Part shown: positions 6,873-64,000 of the stretch, piece by piece
How the letters are laid out: every line of letters starts with the position of its first letter
How positions within the stretch are numbered: the stretch's first letter is position 1
Source of the DNA: Cordylochernes scorpioides
Lineage: Eukaryota; Arthropoda; Arachnida; Pseudoscorpiones; Chernetidae
Length of the DNA: 64,000 nt
Direction: 5' to 3'
Assembly: GCA_030710605.1 (NCBI GenBank)
Contig: CP092872.1
Span: 12,177,120-12,241,119, forward strand
The notes under the pieces: model-generated
Databases searched by the model: none
The model's input: only the letters and a program-made list of their open reading frames with translations
What the model was told of the DNA's origin: nothing
Position numbers and translations under genes: made by a program

Positions 6873-7593
6873 TATTTTGTAATTTTAAGACATATGTTTA
6901 TTTTGATAAATGTAAAATATCTGATAACTTACCTTTTTTTAAATTTCTCAAATAATAAGTTGAATACTATTTTAAAATATTTAAAAGCATGTATTTTATT
7001 TTGTTTATAGTATTATTTATTATTTTGAAAATAGAGCAATCCATACTTAATAACATTTATTAAATATTATTAAATCCAATATATGCCTTTTATTATCTAA
7101 TTATTTATTATGAGAAAACATTATATTACAATATATATATACAATACTAACAACATGTATACGTTTTCCTAAAAAAAAAAATAGCAATTAGATAAATGAT
7201 AATATAAAAAATACCAAAAGAAAAATAAATGGCATTCATTGGTGACGGTTAACAGAAGATAAATTGACATTAATTAAAACGCTTCCCTCTCTCGTATGTT
7301 TTTAATTAAAATTATGAAAGAGAATTACCAAAAGATTACAAAATGGTGAAATCCAATTTTTACTCAAACGATTAGTTTTTTTTCCTTTCAAAAGTCAATT
7401 ATTTGTTTAGTTTTATTGTTGAAAAATAATGGATTTTATGTTGTCTCATATATTATTTTCTAGGCACGATGTACCTCTATATCAAAATGATTAGCTGTTA
7501 AATATTCAAAAGATTTTCAAATAAAAGATGTAATTCATTATTTTTCTTCATTTCTCAAATATATAGAAATATATAATATACAATACTATAATA
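6873..7593. other. AT-rich duplicated sequence with a short family X copy
   Basis: It matches 44477-45233 in block B. It includes a short inverted family X derivative at 7027-7112. No gene was seen. Confidence 0.6.
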
Positions 7594-7960
7594 TCTACTA
7601 ATATAATTGCCTTATTCTGTCTGTGTGAATTTCACGGATAGATTTTGGTCATCAACGCGCGCATCATCATTATGATCATTATCATTATCTAATGATAATA
7701 ATTATAATAATTATTATTATTATACTTATATATATCTACTTATATAATTGCCTTATTCTGTCTGTGTGAAGTTCACTGTGTGAAGTTCACACAGACAGAA
7801 TAAGGCAATTATATAAGTAGATATATATAAGTATAATAATAATAATTATTATAATTATTATCATTAGATAATGATAATGATCTTATATATATCTACTTAT
7901 ATAATTGCCTTATTCTGTCTGTGTGAAGTTCACTGTGTGAAGTTCACGGATATATTTTGG
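7594..7960. repeat. Helitron 5' end repeated in direct and inverted copies
   Basis: The TATAATTGCCTTATTCTGTC terminus occurs at about 7607, 7745 and 7903 on the + strand, and inverted near 7795-7838. The second and inverted copies form a near-perfect palindrome around 7785. A (TAA)n tract and TCATTAGATAATGATAATGA-like sequence lie between the copies. Confidence 0.8.
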
Positions 7961-7986
7961 TCAGAATGGATAAAATAAAAAAAGTG

Positions 7987-8058
7987 TCAAGGGATGGGAA
8001 TCGAACCCACGACCTTCCGCTTACCGGGCAGATGCCATGACCACTAGGCTACCCTGGA
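7987..8058 (-). ncRNA. tRNA-derived SINE head (family S1)
   Basis: Read on the minus strand, 72 nt fold like a tRNA: acceptor TCCAGGG with CCCTTGA, A box TAGCCTAGTGG, anticodon stem TCTGC/GCGGA, T arm with B box GGTTCGATTCC. Position 33 is C rather than U, and the same sequence recurs with similar downstream tails at 36775 and 43934, so a pol III SINE head or pseudo-tRNA is more likely than a working tRNA gene. Confidence 0.75.
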
Positions 8059-8308
8059 CATATTTTTCCGTTCATAAAGTTAATATATGATGCCAATATA
8101 TATAATAATTGTATAAACGAATGCAAGACAAAATCACCGCGAATGTTTCTTTTTTTTTTTAAGGCAATTTCTTTTTAAGGCAATTATCGTTTTGCACAAT
8201 TACTTAATCTTTTAAAATAAATAACAATACTTAAATGAAAATATGTTTCTTTAAATATAATAAAATAAAATTTTAAATCGGTAACCTTTATGAGAACCTT
8301 TAAATATA

Positions 8309-9727
8309 CACTGCGTGACATTGAAAATGGAACACCAAGAAATAGTGGCCAGAAAATTATGCAAATTTCAGGGTAGACGCGCCTAACCGAGTTATGCAAA
8401 TGATGTAAAATGCGCAGCTCTCGTGCGCACATGGAGTAAGATATAAGGGAAGGAACTTGCAGAAAGGACAGTATTCGTGTCGTTATTTCTTCAAGGAAAA
8501 TCATTGTAGAAATTTTGTTCTTGTGTCAAAAGACACGTGTAATAACAGAGAATGCCAGGTCATCGTAAACGGAGGCAGTTCAAGCAGACAGACGCTTTTA
8601 CGAGGGGCATGGTGATCGGACTGAAAAGGGCAGGTTGGTCCATACGTCAAATCGCAGCTGATACACACCTTGGTGCGTCCACGGTGCACCGACTGTGGAG
8701 AAGATGGTTGGAACAAGGAAATGTGGCAATTTATAGGAATGTCGGTGCAACCAGAGTGACGTCAGCACGTGTGGATCGGCGTATCCTTCGACAAGCAGTG
8801 GCGGCCCCACAAGCCACTTGTACCGCCATCCTGCAACATGTGCAAGACACCCTAGATCATTCCATCTCGACCAGAACCATTTCCCGTCGATTGGTTGCTA
8901 ATGGCTTGCACTCATGCCGTCCGCTAAGAAGACTGCCATTGACCCCACCGAATAGGCGCCAACGTTTGGAATGGTGCCGGGCTAGATCGACGTGGATGAC
9001 GGAATGGCACAGGGTCGTGTTCTCAGATGAGTCGCGTTTCTGCTTGTCCAGTGATAGTCGCCGTGTACGCGTGTGGCGTCGACGTGGAGAAAGATCCAAT
9101 CCGGCAGCAATTGTGGAACGCCCCACCGTGCGACAACGTGGAATCATGGTTTGGGGCGCAATCGCGTATGATTCCAGGTTACCTTTACTTCGTATTCAGG
9201 GCACTATGACGGCCCAACGATACATTGATGATGTGCTGCGACCGGTGACACTCCCCTACCTTCAGGGGGTACCCAATGCCCTTTATCAGCAGGATAACGC
9301 CCGACCGCACACTGCTCGCATTAGCCAACAAGCTCTGCAAGATGTACAGATGCTTCCCTGGCCACCGTACTCTCCTGACCTCTCACCAATCGAGCACGTC
9401 TGGGACATCATTGGACGCCGTTTGCATGCCTTGCCACAGCCGCGTTCAGAAGACGAACTGTGGCAAATGGTTGAGAGGGAATGGAGAGCCATCCCTCAGG
9501 ACGCCATCCGTACTCTGATTGACTCTCTACCTAGACGTGTTGCTGCGTGCATCGCCGTCCGCGGTGGTCCTACTTGCTACTAAGCCGACGCCGTTCTCGC
9601 TCTGTATTATGACTATCATTTTGAAATAAAGATCACTTATTGTTCGTCCCTGTCTCTCTCTGTCTGCCGAGTTTCATCACTTTCTGGCCACTATTTCTTG
9701 GTGTTCCATTTTCAATGTCACGCAGTG
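8309..9727 (+). mobile_element. Tc1-like DNA transposon, structurally complete
   Basis: Perfect terminal inverted repeats of about 47 bp begin CACTGCGTGACATTGAAAAT. TA duplications lie at 8307-8308 and 9728-9729. It encodes one uninterrupted transposase and is nested in the Helitron, so it arrived later. The matching terminal repeats and intact frame suggest a recent insertion. Confidence 0.95.
8552..9583 (+). CDS. Tc1-like transposase, intact, 343 aa
   Basis: This cut-and-paste transposase binds the element's inverted repeats and inserts at TA. Residues 1-60 hold a helix-turn-helix (IRQIAADTHLGASTVHRLWR), followed by a second HTH-like region to about 125. The catalytic triad is visible: D159 in VFSDESRF, D248 in QQDNARPHTA, E281 in SPIEHVWD. 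By my count 32 residues separate the second Asp and the Glu, two fewer than the 34 usual in Tc1 proteins, owing to a shorter stretch before LPWPPYSPD. The length of 343 aa is normal for the family. The start ATG at 8552 is the first in frame and lies about 240 bp inside the left end. There is no stop or frameshift, and it could be functional. Confidence 0.95.
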   Translation: MPGHRKRRQFKQTDAFTRGMVIGLKRAGWSIRQIAADTHLGASTVHRLWRRWLEQGNVAIYRNVGATRVTSARVDRRILRQAVAAPQATCTAILQHVQDTLDHSISTRTISRRLVANGLHSCRPLRRLPLTPPNRRQRLEWCRARSTWMTEWHRVVFSDESRFCLSSDSRRVRVWRRRGERSNPAAIVERPTVRQRGIMVWGAIAYDSRLPLLRIQGTMTAQRYIDDVLRPVTLPYLQGVPNALYQQDNARPHTARISQQALQDVQMLPWPPYSPDLSPIEHVWDIIGRRLHALPQPRSEDELWQMVEREWRAIPQDAIRTLIDSLPRRVAACIAVRGGPTCY

Positions 9728-10184
9728 TATATAAGTACCTTTAATCGATAATCTTTATAAGAATAAAATATGTAGTGTATTTTAAAAACACACAGTTTGG
9801 AACGGGACGTTTCACAAGAGTGACATCCATGGCGCCAATTTATAATTGTAACGAATAGTATTTGAATTAAAACGTTTTTAAAATATATACGCACTCGGGT
9901 AAAACCCGGGCGTTGCCCGGGCCATTCGTCTAGTATATACATAAAATTCAAAACACTTTCATTTATAAAGTTGTATTCATTCAAATTATACCTTTTTGAT
10001 ATTATAAAGAACATTTTCGATAAAAGACATGTTGTATATATATAATTATTTTCCACTTTTAAAATACATTTTATAGTATATTATATATCAACAAGAAACA
10101 TTTTAAAGTTTAATATGTAGGTTATATTTTATGATTTTATAACAAAACATTGAAAAATATTTAACAACGACATTTTAAGGTTTA

Positions 10185-10486
10185 GAAAATAAAAAGGCAT
10201 ATATTGAATTTAATAAAATATTTATTTTGCCATTATTTCGGCTGGCTTAAACGCCAACCTTTATCGAGGCATAACATCTTTGCATACACAAACTCAGCGC
10301 CACATAGTGTTATAATATCACAGTTGAACTCATTTAAAATACAAAGTAGGTGGGGGAAATTTGTGCATGAAAAAAATATTCAAAAATTACAATCAGAAAT
10401 ATTGGCAAAATAAATATTTTATTAAATCCAATATATGCCTTTTTATTATCTAATGAATTAAATATGGATTACTCTATTTTCAAAAC
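10185..10486. mobile_element. Family X element, partly asymmetric copy (block A)
   Basis: The left arm carries the CGGCTGGC...CGCCAACCTTTATCGAGG stretch; the right arm keeps only AATATTGGCAAAATAAATAT and the ATATATGCC terminus. The centre differs from other copies (CAAAGTAGGTGGGGGAAAT). The sister copy is at 45515-45823. Confidence 0.75.
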
Positions 10487-10584
10487 GATTTTAAGGTTTA
10501 ATATCGACATTAATAAATTTCAAAATCGCATTGATGTGAAATTAAATTTTATAGTTTAAAATAACATTGTAAAAAATTAAATAA

Positions 10585-10840
10585 TATATAGGTTTTTAAC
10601 TTTTAATTAGACAATTTCAATTTATATTTCGACACTTTTCATTTTAATTTAGACACTTTCATTTTAATTTTAGACATTTTTCATTTTAATTTAGACATTT
10701 TTCATTTTAATTTCAGACATTTTTCATTTTAATTTAGACACATGGGCTTTTCTATAAAAAGCCCATGTGTCTAAATTAAAATGAAAAATGTCTGAATATA
10801 AATTAAAATTGATAAATTAAAAGTTAAAACCTATATATGG
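10585..10840. repeat. Palindrome with embedded short tandem repeats
   Basis: Nearly perfect arms at about 10712-10751 and 10756-10795 meet at a GGGCTTTTCTATAAAAAGCCC centre. Outside them TTTAGACATTTTTCATTTTA is repeated several times and TAGGTTTTTAACTTTTAATT has its complement on the other side. It is probably a foldback element. It is missing from block B. Confidence 0.7.
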
Positions 10841-11121
10841 AATATTCTTATTGAAACCGTTTTAGTAACCTTTATATTTATTTTATTCAATAAAATCTGT
10901 TCACATTAAAAGTAAAATGATTTTGTTATCATATAAAATTGAATTCTTTAAGTGAAAACGGTTATGCACAAATATATATCTAATTTATCTTTTATCAACT
11001 AAATAAAATATCCATAATAAAATAAAAAGATCAACCGGTTTTGTATCATTATCACCTATTATACTTTTGGTACTTGCCTGATAGCCAAAAATACATTATT
11101 TTATTTTTTTAATGCATTTAA

Positions 11122-12434
11122 CCCTTAGTTACTCGCGCCATTTTACTGACGTTGTTACTCGCGCGGGTCTCGTAGACCCCAATATTCTACAATGGATAAA
11201 ATACTTTAAAAAATAAAAAATAGATATAATATTTGCTTGCAGCCAAAAGAATACAGTCTCTAGTTTAAAAATATATCAATTTATCATAAAAACCTACATT
11301 ATTAATTATTTTTATTTGATAAAATTGGTAATATGGCAAAAAATCTAAACTATCGATATATAAAAACAATTTACTTTAAAATATAAATGAAAATCTAAAT
11401 TATCCTTGTGCATACTTCTTGCAAAGTGTTGTTGAGTGTCCAGTATGAATGTGTTTAATGCATTTAGCACACATAATTTTGTATTTTCGGTCTTTGGAGC
11501 GATCACAATATTGGCAGCACTTCCGTTTCGCTGATATGACCCTGGCCGATTTTCTTCCTAAAGAAACAAGAACTTTATATCTGTCAATTAATTATAACAT
11601 TTTAAAACTTTACTTGTTGTAGCTTATCTGTAGAAATATGTGTAAAAATAATCTTTTTGATTTCTTTTGCCAGAAAACTTTTTTTTTTTTTTCGTTTTTG
11701 TAGGTTTGGGTCAATTATCCAAAATGCAATCTTTTCAATGAGCGATCTTCATTTTAATATTTTCAAATTTTTGTTTCTTTTTTTTATAACTTTTGTTGAA
11801 ACATTGATGAGATCGAAAAAGAGGCACAATAGCCATCTCCTTGTCCTCCTACTTTGGAATTTTACACAATTGATCAACTACATCAACACCTGATTCATTT
11901 CATTACATTTATTTTATCTCTGATTTAGAATTTACACCAGATTTTCAGAATTTATTTGTTTTGTGGAGACCATGATTGAAATTAAAATAACTGCTTTGGA
12001 CTTTTTGGTACATATGAAACAAGTGTACTCTCTATTTTCTTGAATCCAAAAATGGAAGAGTGAGCTGAACGTAGTTTTCGTAGCAAAAAATTGGGGGAAT
12101 TTCCGTTTTATTTTTATTTATTGTTCATAAAAAAACTAAGTCAAAGTCATAGATAAAATATATAAAGTGTTACCGAGCTATAAGGCAGCTTACCTATTTC
12201 ATCATACTTGAAAATTAAAGTTATGTTATTACTCGCGCGGTGTACAATGGACCCCAACTCCATTGTATTGTATATTATAGGGCAACAAAATTAAGTTAAT
12301 ATATGTTTACATATTCATTGTCATATAAAATTAAGCTATTAAAGTTTTGATCTCCAAATGTTTTATAGAATTCTAGATATTTAATGAAATAAGTCTGTCT
12401 GGGGTCTATCAGACCCCGCGCGAGTACTTAAGGG
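11122..12434 (-). mobile_element. piggyBac-like element remnant (block A)
   Basis: The ends are CCCTTAGTTACTCGCGC and GCGCGAGTACTTAAGGG, flanked by TTAA on the left and TTAG on the right. TTAA targets and CCCT-type ends mark piggyBac elements. Subterminal CTCGCGCGGG / AGACCCC motifs occur near both ends. Only the 3' part of a transposase gene is recognisable, on the minus strand. Confidence 0.75.
11400..11605 (-). pseudogene. piggyBac-like transposase, C-terminal cysteine-rich domain only
   Basis: Minus-strand translation ends at TAA (11400-11402) and reads SAKRKCCQYCDRSKDRKYK, then KIMCAKCIKHIHTGHS, then TTLCKKYAQG. The CX2C...CX2C...H...H...C pattern fits the terminal RING/PHD-like zinc module of piggyBac transposases, which recognises the element ends. 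The catalytic DDD core is not present upstream in any frame I read. A stop codon closes the frame on the 5' side at about 11605. A near-identical copy lies at 50470-50670. Confidence 0.65.
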
Positions 12435-29162: not shown

Positions 29163-29505
29163 GTACCAAAATAGGCACCTCTCCCTTTTAAAAATGTATT
29201 AAAACAATGCAGTTTGTTTTTCAAATTATTACAAAGCGTAATGGTAGTAATGAAGAATATGCTGCAACACCAATTTTGGAAAATTCAGACAACAACCTGT
29301 ATATCATGGTTTGATTATATGACCCTCATCAGTACAGGGGTGGCTTCGATTTCATAACATTCTATGAGAGAAGTTATGTAATCGGTCGAATTTTCCAAAA
29401 AGATGTTTGAGCTGATGAAGTGGCAAGGACCGATTTTCAGTACATAATACAACATAAAACGTTCGAGGGAATAATATTGATGTACTAAAATAGACACCTC
29501 TCCCA
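29163..29505 (-). mobile_element. Retrozyme-like repeat unit with degenerate hammerhead
   Basis: Direct repeats ACC/TAAAATAGGCACCTCTCCC-like at 29165 and 29483 define a unit of about 318 bp. Inside it, on the minus strand at about 29300-29350, CTGATGAGGGTC is followed after a loop by AAACCATGATA, with CCTGTA and TACAGG placed to form stem I. The core GAAA is altered, so cleavage is unlikely. It resembles the unit at 52657-53034. Confidence 0.6.
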
Positions 29506-29659
29506 TTGAAATACAATCTTTAATCAGCTTTATATTGTATTCATGCGTCGGACCTGAAGGCTGTTGGGTTCTGTGCTGCCTGGAGTATAGGAGCTCCATC
29601 TATGGTTCCTTCCTGTGGTGAATCTGTATAAGACCGGTGGTCTTAATAAAGCTGAGTGT

Positions 29660-31050: not shown

Positions 31051-31270
31051 ATAAAAATATTAAAAAGGAATCTCCTTATCGTGCAACTGAAAGTTTCTGA
31101 TGGCTTGCGCCATCTATCGGAATAAATTTATACTATTCGTTGATTTTTAATTATATTCCAGAATTGGCCAAATACTCATTCTTGATTAATCAAGAAAAGC
31201 TAACCATGTACGCGTTTCGGGCTGTTGGCCCTCATCAGTGTGATGCAAGCTGTACCTCAACGACCAGCTC
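31050..31270 (-). ncRNA. Hammerhead-like core in an inverted relative of segment H
   Basis: The minus strand has CTGATGAGGGCCAACA followed by GCCCGAAAC, an ideal hammerhead core with a four-pair stem II (31212-31237). Stem I is not convincing: the flanks CATCACA and AGCTTTTC do not pair directly. Flanking sequence is an inverted match to 28975-29130, in which the core is replaced by a shorter CACCTGGCG. Confidence 0.5.
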
Positions 31271-31864
31271 AAAGTTTGAATCCTCTCAATTTGAGTTAAA
31301 GATCAATAACAAAATATATTATAAATATTACTGATATTGTCGGCTTTTATTTAATACTTTGATGTAACTACTGAGATATAACCACTGAGATATGGAATAA
31401 GCTCGCTTATTAGCTATTTCAATGCTGATTGGCTGGTTAAGGCCACATTATTGGAGACAACCAATCAGTGATCGAATAAACTGGACACCATATATATGTT
31501 ATATTAAAATATAATTCTATTTAAAATTATATTTCATAGATTCAAATACTCTGTTAAATCGACCGCCAGAGGTCATGCTTCCCCTATAAAAACTCGGTGT
31601 TCTTTCCCGATGGCCGGCTCAAACCTTTTGTACATTATGTAAATATTCCACTGGTCCGCAAAATTAAAGGAACAACATATTTTTTTTTTCATTTATCTCA
31701 AATTTTATTGAACATTTATCAATGAAATTTCATACACAAATTTTTTATTCCATTATTGATTAGAATACCCGAAATCAAATAATTCTAACACGTATTTTAT
31801 GCAAATTAGCCGGTCAAACAATGATCTTCTTGCAGTCAGTGTATAAATATCTTGGAAATTTTTG

Positions 31865-33539: not shown

Positions 33540-33740
33540 GTGATAAACAATAAGCCATAACACCAGTTTTGGTAAATTCTGACAGAAAGCCAACAACCAG
33601 TATACCATGGATACGGATTATGGCTCTCATCAGTACAGGGACGGCTTCGATTCCATAACATCCTACGAAAGGGATTATGAAATCAGTCGAATTGACAAAA
33701 AAAGATGTTTGAGTTGGTGAAGTGGTTACACAGGACCATT
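33540..33740 (-). repeat. Retrozyme-like fragment
   Basis: It is related to 29230-29430 (GGCTTCGATTCCATAACAT, GTGAAGTGG). The minus strand shows CTGATGAGAGCCATAA and CCATGGTATACTGG, but the GAAA box reads GTAT, so the hammerhead is dead. Confidence 0.55.
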
Positions 33741-34539: not shown

Positions 34540-34705
34540 CTTTTTATTTCCGATATTTCGATGGGCTAAACGACCATCTTGTTCTAGGATCTCATCCCTT
34601 TATGAACTGATTATTTGATGGAATTTGGGCCGGGAGGAAATTGATCTAAAGAGACAAAGGTTGCCTCTCCCGTCAAAATAGACGTCAATACCAGACGCCA
34701 TCTAT
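34540..34705 (-). repeat. Degenerate retrozyme-like or Penelope-terminal fragment
   Basis: CTCTCCCGTCAAAATAGACG followed by GACGCCATCTATC matches the direct repeats of the 52657-53034 unit, and GATATTTCGATGGGC is a decayed hammerhead side. Confidence 0.5.
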
Positions 34706-35565: not shown

Positions 35566-35719
35566 TTTACTCTATTTCATAACGATCTTTATTTTAACCT
35601 CCACAAGCTGTAAAGGTTGTCTATATTCATGACAGTCTCAAACTCCACCTTTGCCGGTCCCAAGCTCGGATAAAAAAGGAGGAGGGGGAGCAGTAACAAG
35701 CTCACTAAAAAACCTGGGC

Positions 35720-44742: not shown

Positions 44743-45514
44743 TTTATTATGAGAAAACATTATATTACAATATATCTATACAATACTAACAACATGTATA
44801 CGTTTTCCTAATAGAAAAAAATAGCAATTAGATAAATGATAATATAAAAAATACCAAAAGAAAAATAAATGGCATTCATTGGTGACGGTTAACAGAAGAT
44901 AAATTGACATTAATTAAAACGCTTCCCTCTCTCGTATGTTTTTAATTAAAATTATGAAAGAGAAATACCAAAAGATTACAAAATGGTGAAATCCAATTTT
45001 TACTCAAACGATTAGTTTTTTTTCTTTCAAAAGTCAATAATTTGTTTAGTTTTATTGTTTAAAAATAATGGATTTTATGTTGTTTCATATATTATTTTCT
45101 AGGCACGATGTACCTCTATATCAAAATGATTAGCTGTTAAATATTCAAAAGATTTTTAAATAAAAGAAGTAAATTATTATTTTTCTTCATTTCTCAGATA
45201 TATAGAAATATATAATATACAATACAATAATATATACATAAAATTCAAAACACTTTCATTGGAAATAAAGTTGTATTTATTCAAATTATACCTTTTTATT
45301 ATTATTAAGAACATTTTCGATAAAAGACATGTTGATTATATATAATTATTTTACACTTTTTAAATACATTTTATAGTATAATATATATATTTTTAATTAT
45401 CAATAGTATAATATATATCAACAAGAAACATTTTAAAGTTTAATATGTAGGTTATATTTTAAGATTTTATAACAAAACATTGAAAAATATTTAACAACGA
45501 CATTTTAAGGTTTA
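44743..45514. other. AT-rich duplicated sequence including the empty Helitron site
   Basis: It matches 7110-7593 joined to 9934-10184. The junction near 45233 corresponds to the Helitron insertion point in block A. Confidence 0.75.
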
Positions 45515-45823
45515 GATAATTAAAAGGCATATATTGGATTTAATAAAATATTTATTTTGCCATTATTTCGGCTGGCTGAACGCCAACCTTTATCGAGGCA
45601 TTACATCTTTGTATACACAAACTCAGCGCCACATAGTGTTATAATATCACAGTTGAACTCATTTAAAATACAAAGTAGGTGGGGGAAATATGTGCATGAA
45701 AAAAAATATTCAAAAATTACAATCAGAAATATTGGCAAAATAAATATTTTATTAAATCCAATATATGGCTTTTTATTATCTAATGAATTAAATATGGATT
45801 GCTCTATTTTCAAAACGAATTTA
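45515..45823. mobile_element. Family X element (block B sister of 10185-10486)
   Basis: It has the same asymmetric arms and CAAAGTAGGTGGGGGAAAT centre. Confidence 0.75.
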
Positions 45824-45896
45824 AGGTTTAATATCGACATTAATAAACTTTAAAATCGCATTGATGTGAAATTATATTTTATAGTTTAAAATAACA

Positions 45897-48598
45897 TTAA
45901 GTAGAACTGCTCTTCACTGAAGGTTAATAACGAGTTTACAAAGTGGGAAGAGGAGCTTCTTTTTATTAGCATGCACACAAGCTTTCGGACATATCGTCCT
46001 TCATCAGGTAAGAGTAATAAACGCGCTGAGGATCCATATATACACAAAGCTGAAAAGAAAATTTACATAACTGCAAAAGATAAAAGTATTTAAAGATAAA
46101 AATAAGAACCAAATATGCTAAAAAGATTATAGGGATTAAATGCTAATAAATCTGGACTAAGTACATATGCACTATGAATGGTGTTAATCAAGGGCAGGTA
46201 AATGCAACCTATGGCTATTCACATAACATATGGTATTGTTCTGGTATATCTATATGCCTGTTGATGCTGTTTGTTTTTATTGACACAAATGCCTCTAGTA
46301 AAAGTCTTTGGTACTTATTATTGATATTGTTGTATAGAATGGATGGCTTTGTTAGATTGAATGTATGACCGGTTTGCATAGAATGACTGTAAATAGGGGA
46401 ATTTTGGTTTTTATTAGAGATGTTTCTGGAATGCTCAACCATTCTGATGGCGACGGATCTACCCGTCTCCCCGACATAAGTGGCATTGCATTGGTCGCAA
46501 GAGACGGAATAGACAGCACCACCAGAACGGAGAGAACTCGCATGAAGGGAAGATCTGGTAATGGGGTGTCGGATTAGTGTGGCGATGTTAGGTGGGTTCT
46601 GGAAGTATGTTGTAATGCCATGTTGCCTTAAAAACCTGGCTATGGTGATAGACTGGGGGCAAAAAGGAAGGGAGCAAATATTTCTGTGTATAGCTGGAGC
46701 ACTGTTGTGGTGAGGGTCATGCATGTGTTTAAGAATGAAGGGGGTCGGGTAGCCGGATTTGGATAAATATGAAAATATTTTAGCCTTTTCTATTGTTTGG
46801 AATAACGGGAGGGAACAATGAGTAAAGATACGTTTAGTGAGAGCTCTAACTGTATTGATTTTGTGTGGTGTTGGGCAATGTGACCGGAAGTCTGTGTGGT
46901 GTGGGGGTGTGTTGTTTTTATAGTATACTGTGGTATGGAAACTGCTGGGGGTGCGTATGACTAGTGTATCTAGGAAAGGTAGGACTGAGTGATTTTCTGT
47001 TTCATGGGTGAAGGCTATGTCTGGGTGGAAGGAGTTGAGGTCAGATAGGATGTGAGAGGCAGATACCTCACTTACCAAGCAAAAGGTATCATCGATGTAC
47101 CGCCTCCATAGAAAGATGTCTGAAGAATGGCGTGAAGTGATCCATTGGTCCAGTGACCTCATGACAACCTCAGCCACCACGGTTGAGAGGGGGCTACCCA
47201 TGGGGGAGCCCTTGGTCTGCTTGAAAAACTGGGTATCAAATGTGAAGGTGGACATGCCTAGGCATATGGAAGTGAGCTCGACAACCGTCTCCGCGGTGAG
47301 GGTGTCTAACAGGGGGGCATTTTCGAGGAAAGTGCGTAAACTATTAATGATCAAGGGGTGGGCAAGTGAGAGATATAGAGACGTTACATCGAAAGAAACC
47401 ATTATGGACCTGGGGGGAGGTGTGAGGCTGGTGATATAGGACACAAACGAGGGGGAGTTTGCAATGGTATATTCCCATGGGGGAGACTGTAGAAGGAGGG
47501 TCAAGAAGTTGGACAAAAATTTTGACAGGGTATATGCCGGAGAGAGATGGTAAGATATGATTGGTCGGAGGGGAACATCGGGCTTGTGGATTTTTGGAAG
47601 GCCGTAAATGTAGGCTATTTGGGCGAGGTTAGCTGTGAAGTCGTTATATTGCTCTTTAGTGATCTGCTGGGACCTTTTTAATCTTAACAATAGTAAACGG
47701 AAATTCTTAACGGATGTTTTATGTTCCTGTTCAGTGATGGCAGAAAAAATGGAGTGTTGGTCGAGAACGTTTTGCATTTTTTGCTTGTAAACGGTAGTGT
47801 TGAGAATTACGGTCTGTGAGCCTTTGTCGGATTTTGTTATGACTATGTCTCTATTGTGTTTAAGACGGGAGATAACCCTATTCATGGCTAGGGACGGTTT
47901 AGGGATATTGTAGGGTCGTTGAAGGGTGGAGGTGACAAAATGCCTGATCCTATGGGTGTCTTGGTGGTTAAGGCCTCTGAGAGCGGGTTCCACACCAGCT
48001 ATGATGCGAGGAATATCAGAAGGCCCAGGCAGTCTGTATTTTAGGCCCAATGACAGAATCTCAGCATCAGCAGATGGCAAGACATAGTCCGAGAGGTTGA
48101 CCACTCCTTGGGGTGACTGGGGAAGATAGGCTTCTAGTAGATAGGCAGGGAAGTTGTACTTCTTGATCCAGTGATGAAGCTTGGAGTTGTGACGTTGCGT
48201 TATATCGTTCTTCTGGTGCCGAATGTCCCTTGTGATGGATTGCAACAGATCGGCCATTTCTGGATTGGTTAGTAGCTGAGAGACCAGAAAGATCAATCCC
48301 TTGACGGATTTAGAAATAAATCGGATATTGGAGTGGCAACCTTTAATTCTAGACGATAACAGATGGAGTTGGGCGCGGCGTATGACGACGGATGAAAATG
48401 GATTGCGAACAGGATCCCTGATTCGAAGGGATGGAGGTATAAAATCAGCCGTTTCACACAGTTTGTTAAAGTTCAAATGGAGGCGCCATCTTGACAACTG
48501 TAACGATTTCTTTCGCAACTGATAGGTATAACGAGGTAGGTCTTCAGCGGAAGGATTCATGATGAATTCCAGGATAAAAAGCGTAAAAATGAGCGAAT
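45897..48598 (-). mobile_element. Penelope-like retroelement copy P1, full coding capacity
   Basis: The minus strand reads a short leader, one 781-codon frame, then a 3' segment of about 310 bp ending CAGTTCTACTTA. The same 3' segment from copy P2 lies directly upstream, giving the head-to-tail arrangement with terminal-repeat-like flanks usual for Penelope-like elements. The terminal part contains CCTGATGAAGGACGATATG followed by TCCGAAAGC, a hammerhead-like relic. No clear target duplication. Confidence 0.9.
46215..48560 (-). CDS. Penelope-like element protein: reverse transcriptase plus GIY-YIG endonuclease, 781 aa, intact
   Basis: It copies element RNA into DNA and nicks the target. Residues 1-300 are the N-terminal region with the KSDKG motif (244-248). 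RT: LPKIHKP 321-327, SFDVTSLY 389-396 with Asp391, GSPMGSPLS 451-459, YIDD 488-491. GIY-YIG domain from about 680: VYSVSCDQC with a CX2C pair (688, 691), YVGETGRS (695-702), Arg706, His710, and Glu756 in LLLEAF, preceded by His726 and His732 as candidate zinc ligands. The start ATG at 48558-48560 lies 38 bases from the upstream copy's end. All catalytic residues I know for the family are present and there is no stop, so it may be active. Confidence 0.93.
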   Translation of the reverse strand: MNPSAEDLPRYTYQLRKKSLQLSRWRLHLNFNKLCETADFIPPSLRIRDPVRNPFSSVVIRRAQLHLLSSRIKGCHSNIRFISKSVKGLIFLVSQLLTNPEMADLLQSITRDIRHQKNDITQRHNSKLHHWIKKYNFPAYLLEAYLPQSPQGVVNLSDYVLPSADAEILSLGLKYRLPGPSDIPRIIAGVEPALRGLNHQDTHRIRHFVTSTLQRPYNIPKPSLAMNRVISRLKHNRDIVITKSDKGSQTVILNTTVYKQKMQNVLDQHSIFSAITEQEHKTSVKNFRLLLLRLKRSQQITKEQYNDFTANLAQIAYIYGLPKIHKPDVPLRPIISYHLSPAYTLSKFLSNFLTLLLQSPPWEYTIANSPSFVSYITSLTPPPRSIMVSFDVTSLYLSLAHPLIINSLRTFLENAPLLDTLTAETVVELTSICLGMSTFTFDTQFFKQTKGSPMGSPLSTVVAEVVMRSLDQWITSRHSSDIFLWRRYIDDTFCLVSEVSASHILSDLNSFHPDIAFTHETENHSVLPFLDTLVIRTPSSFHTTVYYKNNTPPHHTDFRSHCPTPHKINTVRALTKRIFTHCSLPLFQTIEKAKIFSYLSKSGYPTPFILKHMHDPHHNSAPAIHRNICSLPFCPQSITIARFLRQHGITTYFQNPPNIATLIRHPITRSSLHASSLRSGGAVYSVSCDQCNATYVGETGRSVAIRMVEHSRNISNKNQNSPIYSHSMQTGHTFNLTKPSILYNNINNKYQRLLLEAFVSIKTNSINRHIDIPEQYHMLCE

Positions 48599-50440
48599 TA
48601 AGTAGAACTGCTCTTCACTGAAGGTTAATAACGAGTTTACAAAGTGGGAAGAGGAGCTTCTTTTTATTAGCATGCACACAAGCTTTCGGACATATCGTCC
48701 TTCATCAGGTAAGAGTAATAAACGCGCTGAGGATCCATATATACACAAAGCTGAAAAGAAAATTTACATAACTGCAAAAGATAAAAGTATTTAAAGATAA
48801 AAATAAGAACCAAATATGCTAAAAAGATTATAGGGATTAAATGCTAATAAATCTGGACTAAGTACATATGCACTATGAATGGTGTTAATCTTTGGTACTT
48901 ATTATTGATATTGTTGTATAGAATGGATGGCTTTGTTAGATTGAATGTATGACCGGTTTGCATAGAATGACTGTAAATAGGGAAATTTTGGTTTTTATTA
49001 GAGATGTTTCTGGAATGCTCAACCATTCTGATGGCGACGGATCTACCCGTCTCCCCGACATAAGTGGCATTGCATTGGTCGCAAGAGACGGAATAGACAG
49101 CACCACCAGAACGGAGAGAACTCGCATGAAGGGAAGATCTGGTAATGGGGTGTCGGATTAGTGTGGCGATGTTAGGTGGGTTCTGGAAGTATGTTGTAAT
49201 GCCATGTTGCCTTAAAAAACCTGGCTATGGTGATAGACTGGGGGCAAAAAGGAAGGGAGCAAATATTTCTGTGTATAGCTGGAGCACTGTTGTGGTGAGG
49301 GTCATGCATGTGTTTAAGAATGAAGGGGGTCGGGTAGCCGGATTTGGATAAATATGAAAATATTTTAGCCTTTTCTATTGTTTGGAATAACGGGAGGGAA
49401 CAATGAGTAAAGATACGTTTAGTGAGAGCTCTAACTGTATTGATTTTGTGTGGTGTTGGGCAATGTGACCAGAAGTCTGTGTGGTGTGGGGGTGTGTTGT
49501 TTTTATAGTATACTGTGGTATGGAAACTGCTGGGGGTGCGTATGACTAGTGTATCTAGGAAAGGTAGGACTGAGTGATTTTCTGTTTCATGGGTGAAGGC
49601 TATGTCTGGGTGGAAGGAGTTGAGGTCAGATAAGATGTGAGAGGCAGATACCTCACTTTCCAAGCAAAAGGTATCATCGATGTACCGCCTCCATAGAAAG
49701 ATGTCTGAAGAATGGCGTGAAGTGATCCATTGGTCCAGTGACCTCATGACAACCTCAGCCACCACGGTTGAGAGGGGGCTACCCATGGGGGAGCCCTTGG
49801 TCTGCTTGAAAAACTGGGTATCAAATGTGAAGGTGGACATGCCTAGGCATATGGAAGTGAGCTCGACAACCGTCTCCGCGGTGAGGGTGTCTAACAGGGG
49901 GGCATTTTCGAGGAAAGTGCGTAAACTATTAATGATCAAGGGGTGGGCAAGTGAGAGATATAGAGACGTTACATCGAAAGAAACCATTATGGACCTGGGG
50001 GAGGTGTGAGGCTGGTGATATAGGACACAAACGAGGGGGAGTTTGCAATGGTATATTCCCATGGGGGAGACTGTAGAAGGGGGGTCAAGAAGTTGGACAA
50101 AAATTTTGACAGGGTATATGCCGGAGAGAGATGGTAAGATATGATTGGTCGGAGGGGAACATCGGGCTTGTGGATTTTTGGAAGGCCGTAAATGTAGGCT
50201 ATTTGGGCGAGGTTAGCTGTGAAGTCGTTATATTGCTCTTTAGTGATCTGCTGGGACCTTTTTAATCTTAACAATAGTAAACGGAAATTCTTAACGGATG
50301 TTTTATGTTCCTGTTCAGTGATGGCAAAATCCGACAAAGGCTCACAGACCGTAATTCTCAACACTACCGTTTACAAGCAAAAAATGCAAAACGTTCTCGA
50401 CCAACACTCCATTTTTTCTGCCATCACTGAACAGGAACAT
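48599..50440 (-). mobile_element. Penelope-like copy P2, truncated, with inverted 5' segment
   Basis: The minus-strand body covers roughly codon 274 to the 3' end. At its 5' edge, 50325-50440 is the same element inverted (codons about 243-280 on the plus strand). About 112 bp near 48890 are missing relative to P1. Confidence 0.9.
48844..50350 (-). pseudogene. Penelope-like RT/GIY-YIG pseudogene (P2)
   Basis: The RT part is readable with LPKIHKP, SFDVTSLY, GSPMGSPLS and YIDD. Two single-base indels shift the frame: one G lost near 49998 (CTGGGGGAGG) and one A gained near 49213 (CTTAAAAAACC). The GIY-YIG part retains GRRVD-side sequence in complement and YVGETGRS, but the 112-bp deletion removes the C-terminus including the catalytic Glu. 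The N-terminal 270 codons are missing. Inactive. Confidence 0.9.
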
Positions 50441-51552
50441 TTACTTTAAAATATAAATGAAAATCTAAATTATCCTTGTGCACACTTCTTGCAAAGTGTT
50501 GTTGAGTGTCCAGTATAAATGTGTTTAATGCATTTAGCACACATAATTTTGGATTTTCGGTCTTTGGAGCGATCACAATATTGGCAGCACTTCCGTTTCG
50601 CTGATGTGGCCCTGGCCGATTTTCTTCCTAAAGAAACAAGAACTTTATATCTGTCAATTAATTATAACATTTTAAAACTTTACTTGTTGTAGCTTATCTG
50701 TAGAAACATGTGTAAAAATAATCTTTTTGATTTCTTTTGCCAGAAAACATTTATTTTTCCGTTTTTGTAGGTTTGGGTCAATTATCCAAAATGCAATCTT
50801 TTCAATGAGCGATCTTCATTTTAATATTTTCAAATTTTTGTTTCTTTTATTTATAACTTTTGTTGAAACATTGATGAGATCGAAAAGAGGCACAATAGCC
50901 ATCTCCTTGTCCTCCTACTTACTGTGGAATTTTACACACAATTGAACAACAACACACACTCAACACACACACAACCAACACACACACAACACACAACTAC
51001 ATCAACACCTGATTAATTTCATTACATTTATTTTATCTCTGATTTAGATTTTCCACCAGAATCAGAATCTATTTGCTTTGTGGAGTCCATGATTGAAATT
51101 AAAATAACTGCTTTGGATTTTTTGGTACATATGAAACCAGTGTACTCTCTCTTTTCTTGAATCCAAAAATGGATGAGTGAGCTGAACGTAGCTTTTGTAG
51201 CAGAAAATTGGGGGAATTTCCGTTTTATTTTTATTTATTGTTCATAAAAAACTAAGTCAAAGTCATAGATAAAATATATAAAGTGTTACCGAGCTATAAG
51301 GCAGCCTACCTATTTCCCCATACTTGAAAATTAAAGTTATGTTATTACTCACGCGGGGTCCAATGTACCCCAACTCCATTGTATTGTATATTATAGGGCA
51401 ACAAAATTAAGTTAATATAGGTTTACATATTCATTGTCATATAAAATTAAGCTACTAAAGTTTTGATCTCCAAATGTTTTATAGAATTCTAAATATTTAT
51501 TGAAATATAAGTCTGTCTGGGGTCTATCAGACCCTGCGCGAGTACTTAAGGG
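50441..51552 (-). mobile_element. piggyBac-like remnant (block B), left end lost
   Basis: It matches 11369-12434. The right end is GCGCGAGTACTTAAGGG followed by an intact TTAA (51553-51556). The left end was removed at the Penelope insertion. A (CA)n-rich insert of about 60 bp lies at 50936-51000. Confidence 0.75.
50470..50670 (-). pseudogene. piggyBac-like transposase C-terminal cysteine-rich domain (block B)
   Basis: It has the same zinc-binding tail as 11400-11605, including KRKCCQYCDRSKDRK, CAKCIKHI and TLCKK, with a few substitutions. It ends at TAA (50470-50472). It lacks the catalytic domain. Confidence 0.65.
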
Positions 51553-52062: not shown

Positions 52063-52656
52063 AATAAAAAGATTTATACTGGCCGAAGTATCTTTTTTCA
52101 AGAAATTAGTATTAAAAAGAACCAGCAAATAACTCCATAGCATAATACTCAAGATAATCAAAAATCAAGCAGAAAATCTCTTTTTTTTTTTTCAAATAAT
52201 ATATATAATAAATAAATAGAATGAAATTCAGGTAATATATCTCTCAATTGAGGTTAGATCCCGGCAATCAGCGCCCCACAAGGGAAAAGACAAAAGAGTT
52301 CATTATTTAAACAAGCTTGGAGTTTCTAATGACGTGCTTTCAGTGACTGGAAACTTTACTGAATTACTTAACTCTCTTTCTACACCTCTTTGTTTTTTGT
52401 TTATCCCGTCTTACCGTGGTATAGGGATTGGAGATATTGAGAGTTTGATTTCTTCTTTTAACCTTTTCACTACAATCCACATTAATTTTGTTATTATCTT
52501 TAGAATTAAACACGCCATTTATATTCAAAAAGATTTTTCGTTGACCAATGTCGTGTTTTCTACCTAATGTTTTCCTTAAATATCAGACACGATAAAAGAC
52601 AATCTTTTATTTTGGCAAAATAGATTCAATATTTTCACCAACAACACCACATATAT

Positions 52657-53034
52657 ATAGAAGCAATGGGCGCTTCTCCCGTCAAAATAAACGTCAGAAT
52701 CTGACGCCATCTATTGACCGTCCCCTTAACTAGCGGTATCGGGTCGATGACAAAGCCACAAACACCAACTTTGGCAAGCTGATAAGCGTCCACCTAGAGA
52801 CCATGGTTTCGGGCTAATGGCCCTCGTCAGTCTAGGGCGGACTTTATTCCATGAGATCCACACGGGATCTAATGGAATCCTCACAATCTACCAAAGAGGT
52901 GTTTTGCTGGCAATGTGGCTGGGCCAAATCTATGGCTAGAACATAGATGGAAAATTTGCTGGGAGGAAACTAATCCATAGAAGCAATGGTCGCCTCTTCC
53001 GTCAAAATAAACGTCAGAATCCGACGCCATCTCT
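52657..53034 (-). mobile_element. Retrozyme-like element: 320-bp unit with flanking direct repeats
   Basis: ATAGAAGCAATGGGCGCTTC-like at 52657 and ATAGAAGCAATGGTCGCCTC at 52977 start direct repeats of about 57 bp, period 320, both containing GTCAAAATAAACGTCAGAAT. One complete unit plus the start of a second is present. It is noncoding. The unit contains the hammerhead at 52788-52842, as in small ribozyme-bearing retrotransposons (retrozymes). Confidence 0.75.
52788..52842 (-). ncRNA. Type I hammerhead ribozyme
   Basis: On the minus strand: stem I CCTAGA (52831-52836) with TCTAGG (52793-52798), extended after a GC/T internal loop by GTCC/GGAC; core CTGACGA (52824-52830); stem II GGGC-CATTA-GCCC (52811-52823); GAAA (52807-52810); minimal stem III CC-AT-GG (52801-52806); cleavage triplet GTC, cut after the C at 52799. 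The two-pair stem III is the form known from Penelope-like elements and animal retrozymes, which work best as dimers. Confidence 0.85.
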
Positions 53035-60141: not shown

Positions 60142-60913
60142 GAGAGAGAGAGAGAGAGAGAGAGATTGAGAGAGATTGAAACTGATTTATTTTAACGTCC
60201 ATATAAGATTATATAAGATTAAATACAGAATAAATAAAAATATGTATAAATAAGATTATATAATGAAAAATACATGAATAAATAGATATAAATATATAAA
60301 GTAATAGATAAATATACATATATATAAAATATATACAAGGTCTTCATTGGTGGCGCCCACCGCGAGAAAGACTCCGCCACCGATGGACTGCGAGAGTTCT
60401 TTCCCACAGGGTGGGCAGGTCGATGTGTTGGCTGGCATTACCCAACTCAAGACCAAGATGGTACTTGTAGATGGTAGCCTTCGCCACACTTGTTAGCTTC
60501 ACTGCCTCGGGATGGAGGCCGACGCCGAAGAGCCAGGCCTGCAGATCCAGGGGCAAGTCGCAGAAAGCGAACACCTCCCGGAGCAGGGTTCGCACGGCTC
60601 GGCAACTCCAATATCTGTGGGTCAGCGACCCGTCGCTGGACCCACAGGCGGCACAGTTGGCACGCCTCGAGGCAGGATGGTCAGGATGTGGTAGGGCATG
60701 GAGGGCCAGCCGTAGGGCGACATCTGCGTCGTGACCCGAGAAGCAGTTCCGACGCAGGTCGGCCCAGGGGATGGAGCGGGGCACATCCACGGTGGGGGTC
60801 CACCGGGCAGCCAGCTCTGCAGTAGGATGGGCCTGGAGCCGTGCCGAGTCCAATGCCCGGCGCGCCCTCTGGCTGGGTAGGCGGGTGATGGGGGTCGCCG
60901 ATCCCCGCAGGAC
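60142..60913 (-). mobile_element. 5'-truncated GC-rich LINE tail, unit 1
   Basis: The minus strand runs from the coding C-terminus into an AT-rich 3' UTR and a (TC)n tail at 60141-60175. The coding part is strongly GC-rich in an AT-rich window. Confidence 0.85.
60344..60913 (-). pseudogene. LINE ORF2 C-terminal fragment, unit 1
   Basis: The frame reads DSARLQAHPTAELAARWTPT, then SHPHPDHPASRRANC-like sequence with zinc motif CAACGSSDGSLTHRYWSC (CX2CX8HX4C), then FGVGLHPEAVKLTSVAKATI, LELGNASQHIDLPTLW, ending SRGGRHQ and TGA at 60344-60346. It is the post-RT tail of a non-LTR polyprotein. RT is lost at the repeat junction. GC-rich coding sequence unlike its surroundings. Confidence 0.8.
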
Positions 60914-61328
60914 ATTTCTAACTGGCTATTATATTGCGAACATATATATACATGAAAAATTAGCTCTCTACTAAGTCGTACTATTTTTCACATTGTTTCG
61001 ATTTTTCACGCACTTCTGGCCTTAACTACCCGTTTCCTTATTTTTAAAGATGCCTAAATGACCAGTTTTTTTTTTTGTCATTGAGGTACAACTTGCACCT
61101 GGCGTACGTGTGGTTAGCTTTTCTTGATTAATCAAGAGAGAGAGAGAGAGAGAGAGAGATTGAGATTGAAACTGATTTATTTAAACGTCCATATAAGATT
61201 TTATAAGGTTAAATACAGAATAAATAAAAATATGAATAAATAAGATTATATATAGTGAAAAATAAATAGATATAAATATATAAAGTAATTGATAAATATA
61301 CATATATATAAAATATATACAAGGTCTT

Positions 61329-61898
61329 CATTGGTGGCGCCCACCGCGAGAAAGACTCCGCCACCGATGGACTGCGAGAGTTCTTTCCCACAGAGTGGGC
61401 AGGTCGATGTGTTGGCTGGCATTACCCAACTCAAGACCAAGATGGTACTTGTAGATGGTAGCCTTCGCCACACTTGTTAGTTTCACTGCCCTCGGGATGG
61501 AGGCCGACGCCGAAGAGCCAGGCCTGCAGATCCAGGGGCAAGTCGCAGGAAGCGAACACCTCCCGGAGCAGGGTTCGCACGGCTCGGCAACTCCAATATC
61601 TGTGGGTCAGCGACCCGTCGCTGGACCCACAGGCGGCACAGTTGGCACGCCTCGAGGCAGGATGGTCAGGATGTGGTAGGGCATGGAGGGCCAGCCGTAG
61701 GGCGACATCTGCGTCGTGACCCGAGAAGCAGTTCCGACGCAGGTCGGCCCAGGGGATGGAGCGGGGCACATCCACGGTGGGGGTCCACCGGGCAGCCAGC
61801 TCTGCAGTAGGATGGGCCTGGAGCCGTGCCGAGTCCAATGCCCGGCGCGCCCTCTGGCTGGGTAGGCGGGTGATGGGGGTCGCCGATCCCCGCAGGAC
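61329..61898 (-). pseudogene. LINE ORF2 C-terminal fragment, unit 2 (frameshifted)
   Basis: It is the same as unit 1 except for an extra C near 61490 (TGCCCTCGGG), which shifts the frame after GVGLHPEG. The zinc motif is intact. Confidence 0.8.
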
Positions 61899-62314
61899 AT
61901 TTCTAACTGGCTATTATATTGCGAACATATATATACATGAAAAATTAGCTCTCTACTAAGTCGTACTATTTTTCACATTGTTTCGATTTTTCACGCACTT
62001 CTGGCCTTAACTACCCGTTTCCTTATTTTTAAAGATGCCTAAATGACCAGTTTTTTTTTTTTTGTCATTGAGGTACAACTTGCACCTGGCGTACGTGTGG
62101 TTAGCTTTTCTTGATTAATCAAGAGAGAGAGAGAGAGAGAGAGAGATTGAGATTGAAACTGATTTATTTAAACGTCCATATAAGATTTTATAAGGTTAAA
62201 TACAGAATAAATAAAAATATGAATAAATAAGATTATATATAGTGAAAAATAAATAGATATAAATATATAAAGTAATTGATAAATATACATATATATAAAA
62301 TATATACAAGGTCT

Positions 62315-62884
62315 TCATTGGTGGCGCCCACCGCGAGAAAGACTCCGCCACCGATGGACTGCGAGAGTTCTTTCCCACAGAGTGGGCAGGTCGATGTGTT
62401 GGCTGGCATTACCCAACTCAAGACCAAGATGGTACTTGTAGATGGTAGCCTTCGCCACACTTGTTAGTTTCACTGCCTCGGGATGGAGGCCGACGCCGAA
62501 GAGCCAGGCCTGCAGATCCAGGGGCAAGTCGCAGGAAGCGAACACCTCCCGGAGCAGGGTTCGCACGGCTCGGCAACTCCAATATCTGTGGGTCAGCGAC
62601 CCGTCGCTGGACCCACAGGCGGCACAGTTGGCACGCCTCGAGGCAGGATGGTCAGGATGTGGTAGGGCATGGAGGGCCAGCCGTAGGGCGACATCTGCGT
62701 CGTGACCCGAGAAGCAGTTCCGACGCAGGTCGGCCCAGGGGATGGAGCGGGGCACATCCACGGTGGGGGTCCACCGGGCAGCCAGCTCTGCAGTAGGATG
62801 GGCCTGGAGCCGTGCCGAGTCCAATGCCCGGCGCGCCCTCTGGCTGGGTAGGCGGGTGATGGGGGTCGCCGATCCCCGCAGGAC
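62315..62884 (-). pseudogene. LINE ORF2 C-terminal fragment, unit 3
   Basis: The frame is open like unit 1, with VFASCDLPLD where unit 1 has VFAFCDLPLD. It stops at 62315-62317 after SRGGRHQ. Confidence 0.8.
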
Positions 62885-63299
62885 ATTTCTAACTGGCTAT
62901 TATATTGCGAACATATATATACATGAAAAATTAGCTCTCTACTAAGTCGTACTATTTTTCACATTGTTTCGATTTTTCACGCACTTCTGGCCTTAACTAC
63001 CCGTTTCCTTATTTTTAAAGATGCCTAAATGACCAGTTTTTTTTTTTTGTCATTGAGGTACAACTTGCACCTGGCGTACGTGTGGTTAGCTTTTCTTGAT
63101 TAATCAAGAGAGAGAGAGAGAGAGAGAGAGATTGAGATTGAAACTGATTTATTTAAACGTCCATATAAGATTTTATAAGGTTAAATACAGAATAAATAAA
63201 AATATGAATAAATAAGATTATATATAGTGAAAAATAAATAGATATAAATATATAAAGTAATTGATAAATATACATATATATAAAATATATACAAGGTCT

Positions 63300-64000
63300 T
63301 CATTGGTGGCGCCCACCGCGAGAAAGACTCCGCCACCGATGGACTGCGAGAGTTCTTTCCCACAGAGTGGGCAGGTCGATGTGTTGGCTGGCATTACCCA
63401 ACTCAAGACCAAGATGGTACTTGTAGATGGTAGCCTTCGCCACACTTGTTAGTTTCACTGCCTCGGGATGGAGGCCGACGCCGAAGAGCCAGGCCTGCAG
63501 ATCCAGGGGCAAGTCGCAGGAAGCGAACACCTCCCGGAGCAGGGTTCGCACGGCTCGGCAACTCCAATATCTGTGGGTCAGCGACCCGTCGCTGGACCCA
63601 CAGGCGGCACAGTTGGCACGCCTCGAGGCAGGATGGTCAGGATGTGGTAGGGCATGGAGGGCCAGCCGTAGGGCGACATCTGCGTCGTGACCCGAGAAGC
63701 AGTTCCGACGCAGGTCGGCCCAGGGGATGGAGCGGGGCACATCCACGGTGGGGGTCCACCGGGCAGCCAGCTCTGCAGTAGGATGGGCCTGGAGCCGTGC
63801 CGAGTCCAATGCCCGGCGCGCCCTCTGGCTGGGTAGGCGGGTGATGGGGGGTCGCCGATCCCCGCAGGACGATGGTCTCCGCCTCGTACTCCGCATGATA
63901 GCTGGAGCTGGCGTTTTCCCGCAGGAGACGTTGGCAGAAGGCCCCCAGGTGCTGCGCATCTAGGAGCGCGGCCCGCGTTGAGCGCGCAAGTGCAGGGGCG
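63300..64000 (-). pseudogene. LINE ORF2 C-terminal region, unit 4, extends beyond the window
   Basis: It has the same tail as units 1-3. Upstream of the repeat junction (63870) the LINE goes on to the window edge (about 130 further bases, GC-rich), so this is the parental, longer insertion. An extra G near 63850 (GGGGGG) changes the frame relative to the other units. Whether RT lies just beyond the edge cannot be seen. Confidence 0.75.

Follow-up and report, generated by a model that had tools for sequence, protein, structure and literature searches.

A short noncoding repeat lies on the minus strand of a 64-kb window of the pseudoscorpion Cordylochernes scorpioides genome (assembly GCA_030710605.1, contig CP092872.1, forward-strand positions 12,177,120 to 12,241,119); "the window" means this whole stretch of 64,000 nucleotides, and positions in it are 1-based. 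The repeat bears the motif of a type I hammerhead ribozyme and is one member of a very large family whose insertions are built like those of Penelope-like elements (PLEs). It is probably a metazoan retrozyme of the kind lacking long terminal repeats (non-LTR), for which a PLE-type enzyme would make the copies, starting at both nicked strands of the target. The features of the window copy are given below, with u1 as the first base after the ribozyme cut in ribozyme sense, and with S1 (u129-151, mode 141) and S2 (u168-179, mode 175) as two preferred 3' sites, 34 nt apart.

52657..53032, minus strand: retrozyme copy, 376 bp, 1.17 units, single arm
52657..52712, minus strand: 56-bp repeat, 3' copy (second-lap overlap)
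52977..53032, minus strand: 56-bp repeat, 5' copy
52788..52842, minus strand: type I hammerhead ribozyme motif (descriptor match and three helices; also present in relatives)
52943..52976, minus strand: 34-nt segment from S1 to S2, the optional 3' "tail" of other copies
52943..53032, minus strand: predicted stem-loop u84-u175 (family-consensus fold), first 2 nt absent in the window copy; contains S1 and ends at S2
52650..52656, no strand assigned: AT-rich target flank catatat, adjoining the 3' end

The family unit measures 319-320 nt. In the window copy, the ribozyme-sense 3' end (52657) falls at S1 with the tail absent, and the 5' end (53032) lies at about u86. The direct repeats, 93% identical and spaced 320 bp apart, are explained as lap overlap, not as long terminal repeats (LTRs); an earlier note on this DNA had recognized them at about 57 bp, and the measured length is 56 bp. 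The noncoding 320-bp unit proposed there agrees with the repeat spacing and with the lack of any open frame of at least 120 aa in 52657-53034. Having no long frame, the retrozyme is a passenger only, without the reverse transcriptase (RT) and GIY-YIG domains expected of a PLE. Because the window copy holds a single ribozyme, it would alone be unable to release unit-length RNA; multi-unit genomic copies could do so. GC content is 49.2% in the family consensus and 47.9% in the window copy, values under one published retrozyme limit (<50%, text) and over the other (<45%, figure legend).

Read in ribozyme sense, the hammerhead runs GTCCGCCCTAGA-CTGACGA-GGGC-CATTA-GCCC-GAAA-CCATGG-TC/TCTAGGTGGAC, with a predicted cut between 52799 and 52798. 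Its stem I is built of 4+6 pairs with an internal loop (GC/T), its stem II of four pairs with CATTA as loop 2, and its stem III of two pairs (A-U, C-G) under a CATG tetraloop. Both the reread sequence and a descriptor search thus uphold the complete hammerhead first claimed here, with its ten-pair, two-part stem I, four-pair stem II and two-pair stem III. The descriptor (CTGANGA, stem II, GAA, a short stem III, and at least four pairs in stem I) matched once in the 64 kb, where 100 first-order Markov resamples gave an expectation of 0.12 per window; with at least six pairs in stem I and at least four in stem II, the chance expectation is 0.01 per window. On these resamples, chance was rejected as the origin of the motif. 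The 16 helix pairs are standard in 95.8% of 576 cells in an alignment chosen for variants (37 of 101 rows, mostly variant-bearing and including three loci dropped elsewhere as segmental duplicates). The stem III segment, ACCATGGT, is a palindrome, which makes a dimeric ribozyme conceivable.

The existence of a genomic family, also anticipated earlier, is plain from the exact 25-nt ribozyme core, which occurs at 10,259 places in the 2.62-Gb source genome (24 contigs), against 0 for a reversed-pattern control: the family has thousands of members. Within the window, an nhmmer profile built from 32 family units finds four relatives, the first two being real counterparts, with revised limits, of decayed relatives previously placed at 29163-29505 and 33540-33740.

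29305..29514, minus strand: decayed relative (E 1.9e-8)
33604..33727, minus strand: decayed relative (E 1e-5)
34615..34705, minus strand: older relative, truncated to unit positions 84-174, absent from the earlier note (E 2.1e-19)
31205..31292, minus strand: weak decayed fragment, absent from the earlier note (E 1.4e-4)

Strongly diverged ribozyme-like copies were also seen at two fetched loci, L015 (217-270) and L048 (2454-2508); the relative at L048 shares about 71% identity with the unit and has lost its GAAA. These copies hint at older retrozyme subfamilies.

Insertions were read in two samples of 30 loci, the first taken from the best matches to the window copy at full length (of 3668 candidates, 40 were scored) and the second from the best matches to the ribozyme region (of 149 candidates, 40 were scored). 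Removal of three same-place repeats and five segmental duplicates reduced these 60 loci to 52 non-redundant ones. Contig C1 was surveyed through the first 100 places for each exact word, in position order and without similarity ranking.

Visible 3' ends of the 52 loci (n = 79, counting only the right-hand array of L012) fall at S1 in 38 cases, at S2 in 33 and elsewhere in 8. Thirty of the loci have two arms, arranged head to head. Where both ends of such a pair are visible (n = 28), one arm ends at S1 and the other at S2 in 22 loci, both end at S1 in one and at S2 in none, and five involve another site; with the count restricted to S1 and S2, the split is seen in 22 of 23 loci (p=6e-6 against p=0.5). 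Single-arm loci end at S1 (10), at S2 (10) or at another site (1), and no end is visible in L044, where tandem units extend over 3.1 kb or more. In 27 of 28 loci the length difference between the two arms exceeds 60 nt (median 257), and the arm junctions show an overlap of 1-25 nt in 19 of 30 and none, or a gap, in the other 11.

The survey of C1 gives a similar picture. Among 33 two-armed retrozyme loci, 24 have one tailed arm (one of them with irregular strand order), two have both arms tailed and seven neither (p=0.005); in the 24 loci with the upstream word in both terminal arms, the corresponding counts are 16 with one tail, one with both and seven with none. Exact cores less than 1 kb apart are head-to-head in 11 cases, tandem in 2 and tail-to-tail in 0. 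More than one copy is present in 27 of 55 clusters, with same-direction neighbors in several. The retrozyme therefore bears the PLE-type signature, in which one of a pair of inverted copies carries a 30-40-bp tail.

Many copies stop near u76-92, after about 1.2 laps and close to the 5' foot of the u84-u175 stem-loop; sample 1 is biased in this respect, its query having ended at u86, and several arms of sample 2 stop there too. A fixed 376-bp element resembling a short interspersed nuclear element (SINE) was considered and rejected as a query artifact, since arrays extend further and a differently placed query gave other lengths.

Exact target duplications of at least 8 bp flank 19 of 49 loci (3 of the 52 are without flank), compared with 11.7% for shuffled flanks; when pure microsatellites are excluded, duplications of 8-14 bp remain at 15 of 49, compared with 4.5%. 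These lengths exceed the 4 bp above which retrozyme duplications, when present, are expected to lie. The targets are AT-rich: over 49 loci, AT makes up 77% of the first 20 nt of flank and 66% of the sequence beyond. Inspection by eye places many insertions within (AT)n runs and shows ...AT as the ending of each of the two sites, with no poly(A) at the element ends so inspected. Target microhomology is possible for the retrozyme, unlike PAc, the PLE from Anolis.

The window also contains a PLE, which serves as the representative of a candidate helper family.

45896..50440, minus strand: PLE insertion
45896-48596, minus strand: full unit
48597-50329, minus strand: upstream tandem unit, 5'-truncated
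50317-50440: inverted segment at the 5' end, 124 nt, outer end near p876
46215..48614, minus strand: open frame with RVT_1 and a sub-threshold GIY-YIG match

All 40 places scored with a 411-bp PLE query (of 1355 candidates) are 100% identical to it after rounding, and the 30 fetched loci are mostly 99-100% identical, which marks the PLE family as young. On C1, among the first 100 places, 37 of 42 PLE loci are two-armed, every one head-to-head. In a tally of exact words that leaves out the last, incomplete cluster, one tail is found in 30 of these 37 loci, none in seven and two in no locus (p=4e-5); in three of the seven tail-less loci, internal laps are also without the exact tail word. PLE word counts drop from 1100 to 744 to 174 across two end sites about 30 nt apart, and five 3' ends read directly lie at p2671, p2673, p2699, p2701 and p19 of the next unit. 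Five C1 loci offer two lap spacings each, equal in four and differing by 1 base in one, and in a PLE array on contig C22 one deletion (p1906/p2193) recurs across several laps and on both arms.

A hammerhead-like string, CTGATGAAGGACGATATGTCCGAAAGC, lies in the PLE 3' region at 46007-45981 (minus strand), and the same string occurs in the upstream unit near 48708 (minus strand). In this candidate ribozyme (CTGATGA...GAAA), stem II is interrupted at its base by an unpaired A; a relaxed descriptor rejects the string, and no claim is made for it. The PLE flanks (45000-45898 and 50439-51499) match 7360-12383 at 91-94%, indicating an old duplication within the window whose other copy is without the PLE.

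Published work provides a template for this anatomy. PLE biochemistry describes cleavage and extension of both strands at AT-rich targets, with two internal start sites bounding a 30-40-bp tail, a mark described as unique to PLEs (PMC11167929). The Penelope elements of Adineta vaga form inverted repeats, mostly head-to-head, with an optional tail on one inverted pseudo-LTR (pLTR); among the examples given, some have 8-10-bp duplications and others none (PMC3846280). With PAc, the Adineta elements and the window PLE, the retrozyme shares head-to-head copies, one arm of which may carry a 30-40-bp tail, as well as partial tandem arrays, short target duplications, AT-rich target sites and two internal start sites; extension of both target strands, reported for PAc (PMC11167929), is for the retrozyme part of the proposed mechanism. 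It differs in having a unit of 320 nt and not 2.7 kb, no long frame, and start sites 141 and 175 nt past the ribozyme cut. Because the insertion pattern is that published for PLEs, a PLE-type enzyme is the likely inserting agent. Of the two helpers suggested earlier, a long interspersed nuclear element (LINE) or Penelope, insertion anatomy favors the second and speaks against the first. PLEs have been named as strong candidate movers of animal retrozymes (Cervera and de la Pena 2020, PMC7229834); a 2022 guide states that retrozymes may rely on PLEs (PMC8969392), and a 2024 review mentions LINEs or PLEs as movers (PMC11722881).

How such an enzyme might recognize the RNA is suggested by the stem-loop. 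In an alignment of 29 of 48 rows, u84-u175 shows 13 cells changed on both sides of a pair, against 4.6 after shuffling (reached in 1/500), and its covariation score was reached in 0/500 shuffles; pairs with a both-side change number 5, against 2.7 shuffled (reached in 46/500). There is moderate support for regarding this predicted structure as a candidate element for RT recognition and initiation. The predicted circle is 72% paired, with a z of -6 relative to 100 shuffles.

Laps and arms of a locus also tend to resemble each other. Two diagnostic bases agree among them in 25 of 27 multi-copy C1 loci, where permutation gave a mean of 9.2 and a maximum of 17. Divergence is lower within than between loci in 15/18, 31/34, 6/7 and 9/13 loci for four stretches of the unit, and mean divergence is lower within loci on all four (for u86-141, 3.4% and 8.0%).

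These features can be assembled into a mechanism. Multi-unit genomic copies would be transcribed, the hammerhead would cut the transcript into 319-320-nt units, and a host ligase would probably close these into circles, as published work in other animals suggests. A dimer of a Penelope-type RT/endonuclease could then bind the u84-u175 stem-loop and cut each strand of an AT-rich target, with some 8-14 bp between the two nicks. One complementary DNA (cDNA) would start on each target strand, from the same RNA and at a different site (S1 = u141, S2 = u175), and would run for a variable distance, which in two-armed loci ranges from less than one unit up to almost three laps. Head-to-head joining of the two cDNAs, by whatever route, would yield inverted arms, one with the 34-nt tail, and single-arm copies such as that of the window may arise from extension of one strand only. 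In its most specific form, the model holds that a PLE dimer uses one circular RNA as template for simultaneous synthesis from the two nicked strands, one site each, that the tail and the inverted arms are products of the same event, and that retrozymes parasitize this process by mimicking the two-site stem-loop, with the ribozyme making the circle; we would put this version on an even footing with its negation.

A number of observations weigh against these interpretations. For the ribozyme, the Rfam covariance match proposed as a check did not appear: no hammerhead was found in the window at the gathering score or E<=10, a miss presumably due to the short stem III. The genome-wide Rfam search gave 0 matches with 74 of 285,298 candidates scored and controls positive in 0 of 14 genomes, and is uninformative. 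Compensatory changes among genomic copies, the other expectation, are likewise lacking: across 36 distinct rows, none of the 16 pairs in the ribozyme helices has one. Mean column identity is 97% in these rows, picked as mostly variant-bearing, and little covariation can be expected of copies so alike. There is no clear sign of purifying selection on the ribozyme, its divergence in sample 1 being 1.55%, next to 1.40% in the left and 2.61% in the right flank; in sample 2, itself fetched by a ribozyme query, ribozyme divergence (3.55%) is below that of the left (4.44%) and right (7.23%) flanks. Both fetched samples were ranked by likeness to the window copy and are biased accordingly. For the stem-loop, one slid control reached 10 both-side-changed cells and 5 such pairs.

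Similar cautions attach to the template and the helper. The nearest copy lies in the same locus, is tied, or lies in another locus in 18, 50 and 37 cases for u86-141, in 11, 29 and 20 for u1-80, in 7, 18 and 6 for u177-250, and in 11, 22 and 11 for u226-319. Haplotypes are mixed in at least the window copy, L002, L014, L030 and 2 of the 27 C1 loci; in the window copy it is the two overlap repeats that differ. Lap homogeneity fits one circular template and fits a homogeneous linear multimer equally well. No target duplication is visible around the window copy, the inverted segment of the window PLE has its outer end at neither preferred site, and no exact tail is present in 7/33 retrozyme and 7/37 PLE two-armed loci on C1. 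Sequence kinship between retrozyme and window PLE was looked for by blastn in the same sense, with no match at E<=10; that PLE family thus need not be the helper.

The template question leads to an alternative that is compatible with PLE mobilization, namely a linear uncleaved multimer as template, with the ribozyme dispensable for mobility. PLE ribozyme mutants are reported to insert in vitro, with unprocessed RNA as the main substrate (PMC11167929), and the many copies ending at u76-92 could mark an RNA 5' end, subject to the bias of sample 1. The alternative is nevertheless unlikely in our estimation: the ribozyme core is kept exact in 10,259 places, and retrozyme circles are described as abundant in other animals (PMC7229834).

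Mobilization by a LINE, through target-primed reverse transcription with twin priming, would account for part of the anatomy. Twin priming also gives outward-facing 3' ends and inverted 5' segments, and target duplications of 8-14 bp do not exclude it. The use of two sites 34 nt apart, one per arm (22/28 loci; 24/33 on C1), matches PLEs instead, the PLE of the same genome follows the same rule, and the inspected ends are, to the eye, free of poly(A). LINEs are not known to share out two preferred start sites one per arm, and we rate this route as improbable.

Fold-back (self-primed) synthesis was put forward in 2013 as the source of inverted arms in Penelope elements, on the evidence of palindromes at inverted junctions (PMC3846280), and the overlaps at 19 of 30 retrozyme junctions (11 having none or a gap) would suit it. 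Arms made in this way should mirror each other and share one end site, whereas 22 of 28 pairs end at different preferred sites and one at the same site, and all but one of the 28 differ in arm length by more than 60 nt; the one-site-per-arm rule makes fold-back priming very improbable here. That the family is an ordinary satellite or SINE, its hammerhead a chance or relic motif, is hardly credible despite the missing Rfam match and helix covariation, given the chance expectation of 0.12 per window, the 10,259 exact cores, the 95.8% standard pairing over 576 cells in a variant-chosen set, and insertion ends and target duplications that show retrotransposition and not satellite growth.

Insertion of a retrozyme by a PLE-type enzyme is therefore the reading we carry forward. 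Like the metazoan non-LTR retrozymes (PMC7229834), the element has a type I hammerhead, copies in tandem and in the thousands, target duplications of more than 4 bp and a predicted circle with a high degree of self-pairing, and it shares its genome with a PLE; its 319-320-nt unit also resembles theirs in size and falls within the 170-400 nt range for tandem copies. It is a new family within this group. The retrozymes of PMC7229834 are described, in the text available, as tandem repeats; two-armed insertions, the two-site tail and the one-site-per-arm rule do not figure in that text. The amphibian satellite retrozymes Amex1 and Amex2 of the axolotl are alike in having units of about 330-350 bp, and in Amex2 a tetraloop likewise caps a two-pair stem III; the unit differs, the two being set apart by description, and the available account leaves two-armed anatomy undescribed (PMC7229834). 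Plant LTR retrozymes are of a shared kind, being non-autonomous and hammerhead-bearing with circular RNA, and differ in their type III hammerheads, LTRs, 4-bp duplications and probable use of Gypsy machinery (PMC7229834).

No earlier description of the tail signature and two-armed anatomy in a retrozyme was found in the literature searched, which covers few subscription journals. The PLE mark carried by the sampled copies bears on which RT moves animal retrozymes. The one-site-per-arm rule, followed by retrozyme and PLE alike, also offers a specific account of how the inverted copies seen in Penelope elements may arise.

Other features of the window include a type-P1 twister match at 35636-35690 (plus strand), beside a run of N, with an E of 1.5e-5 and 41 bits relative to a gathering score of 67.2. 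A long open frame at 8546-9583 (plus strand) contains Tc1/mariner-type transposase domains. On the minus strand, 60344-63959 holds one open frame in four similar copies at a spacing of about 985 bp.
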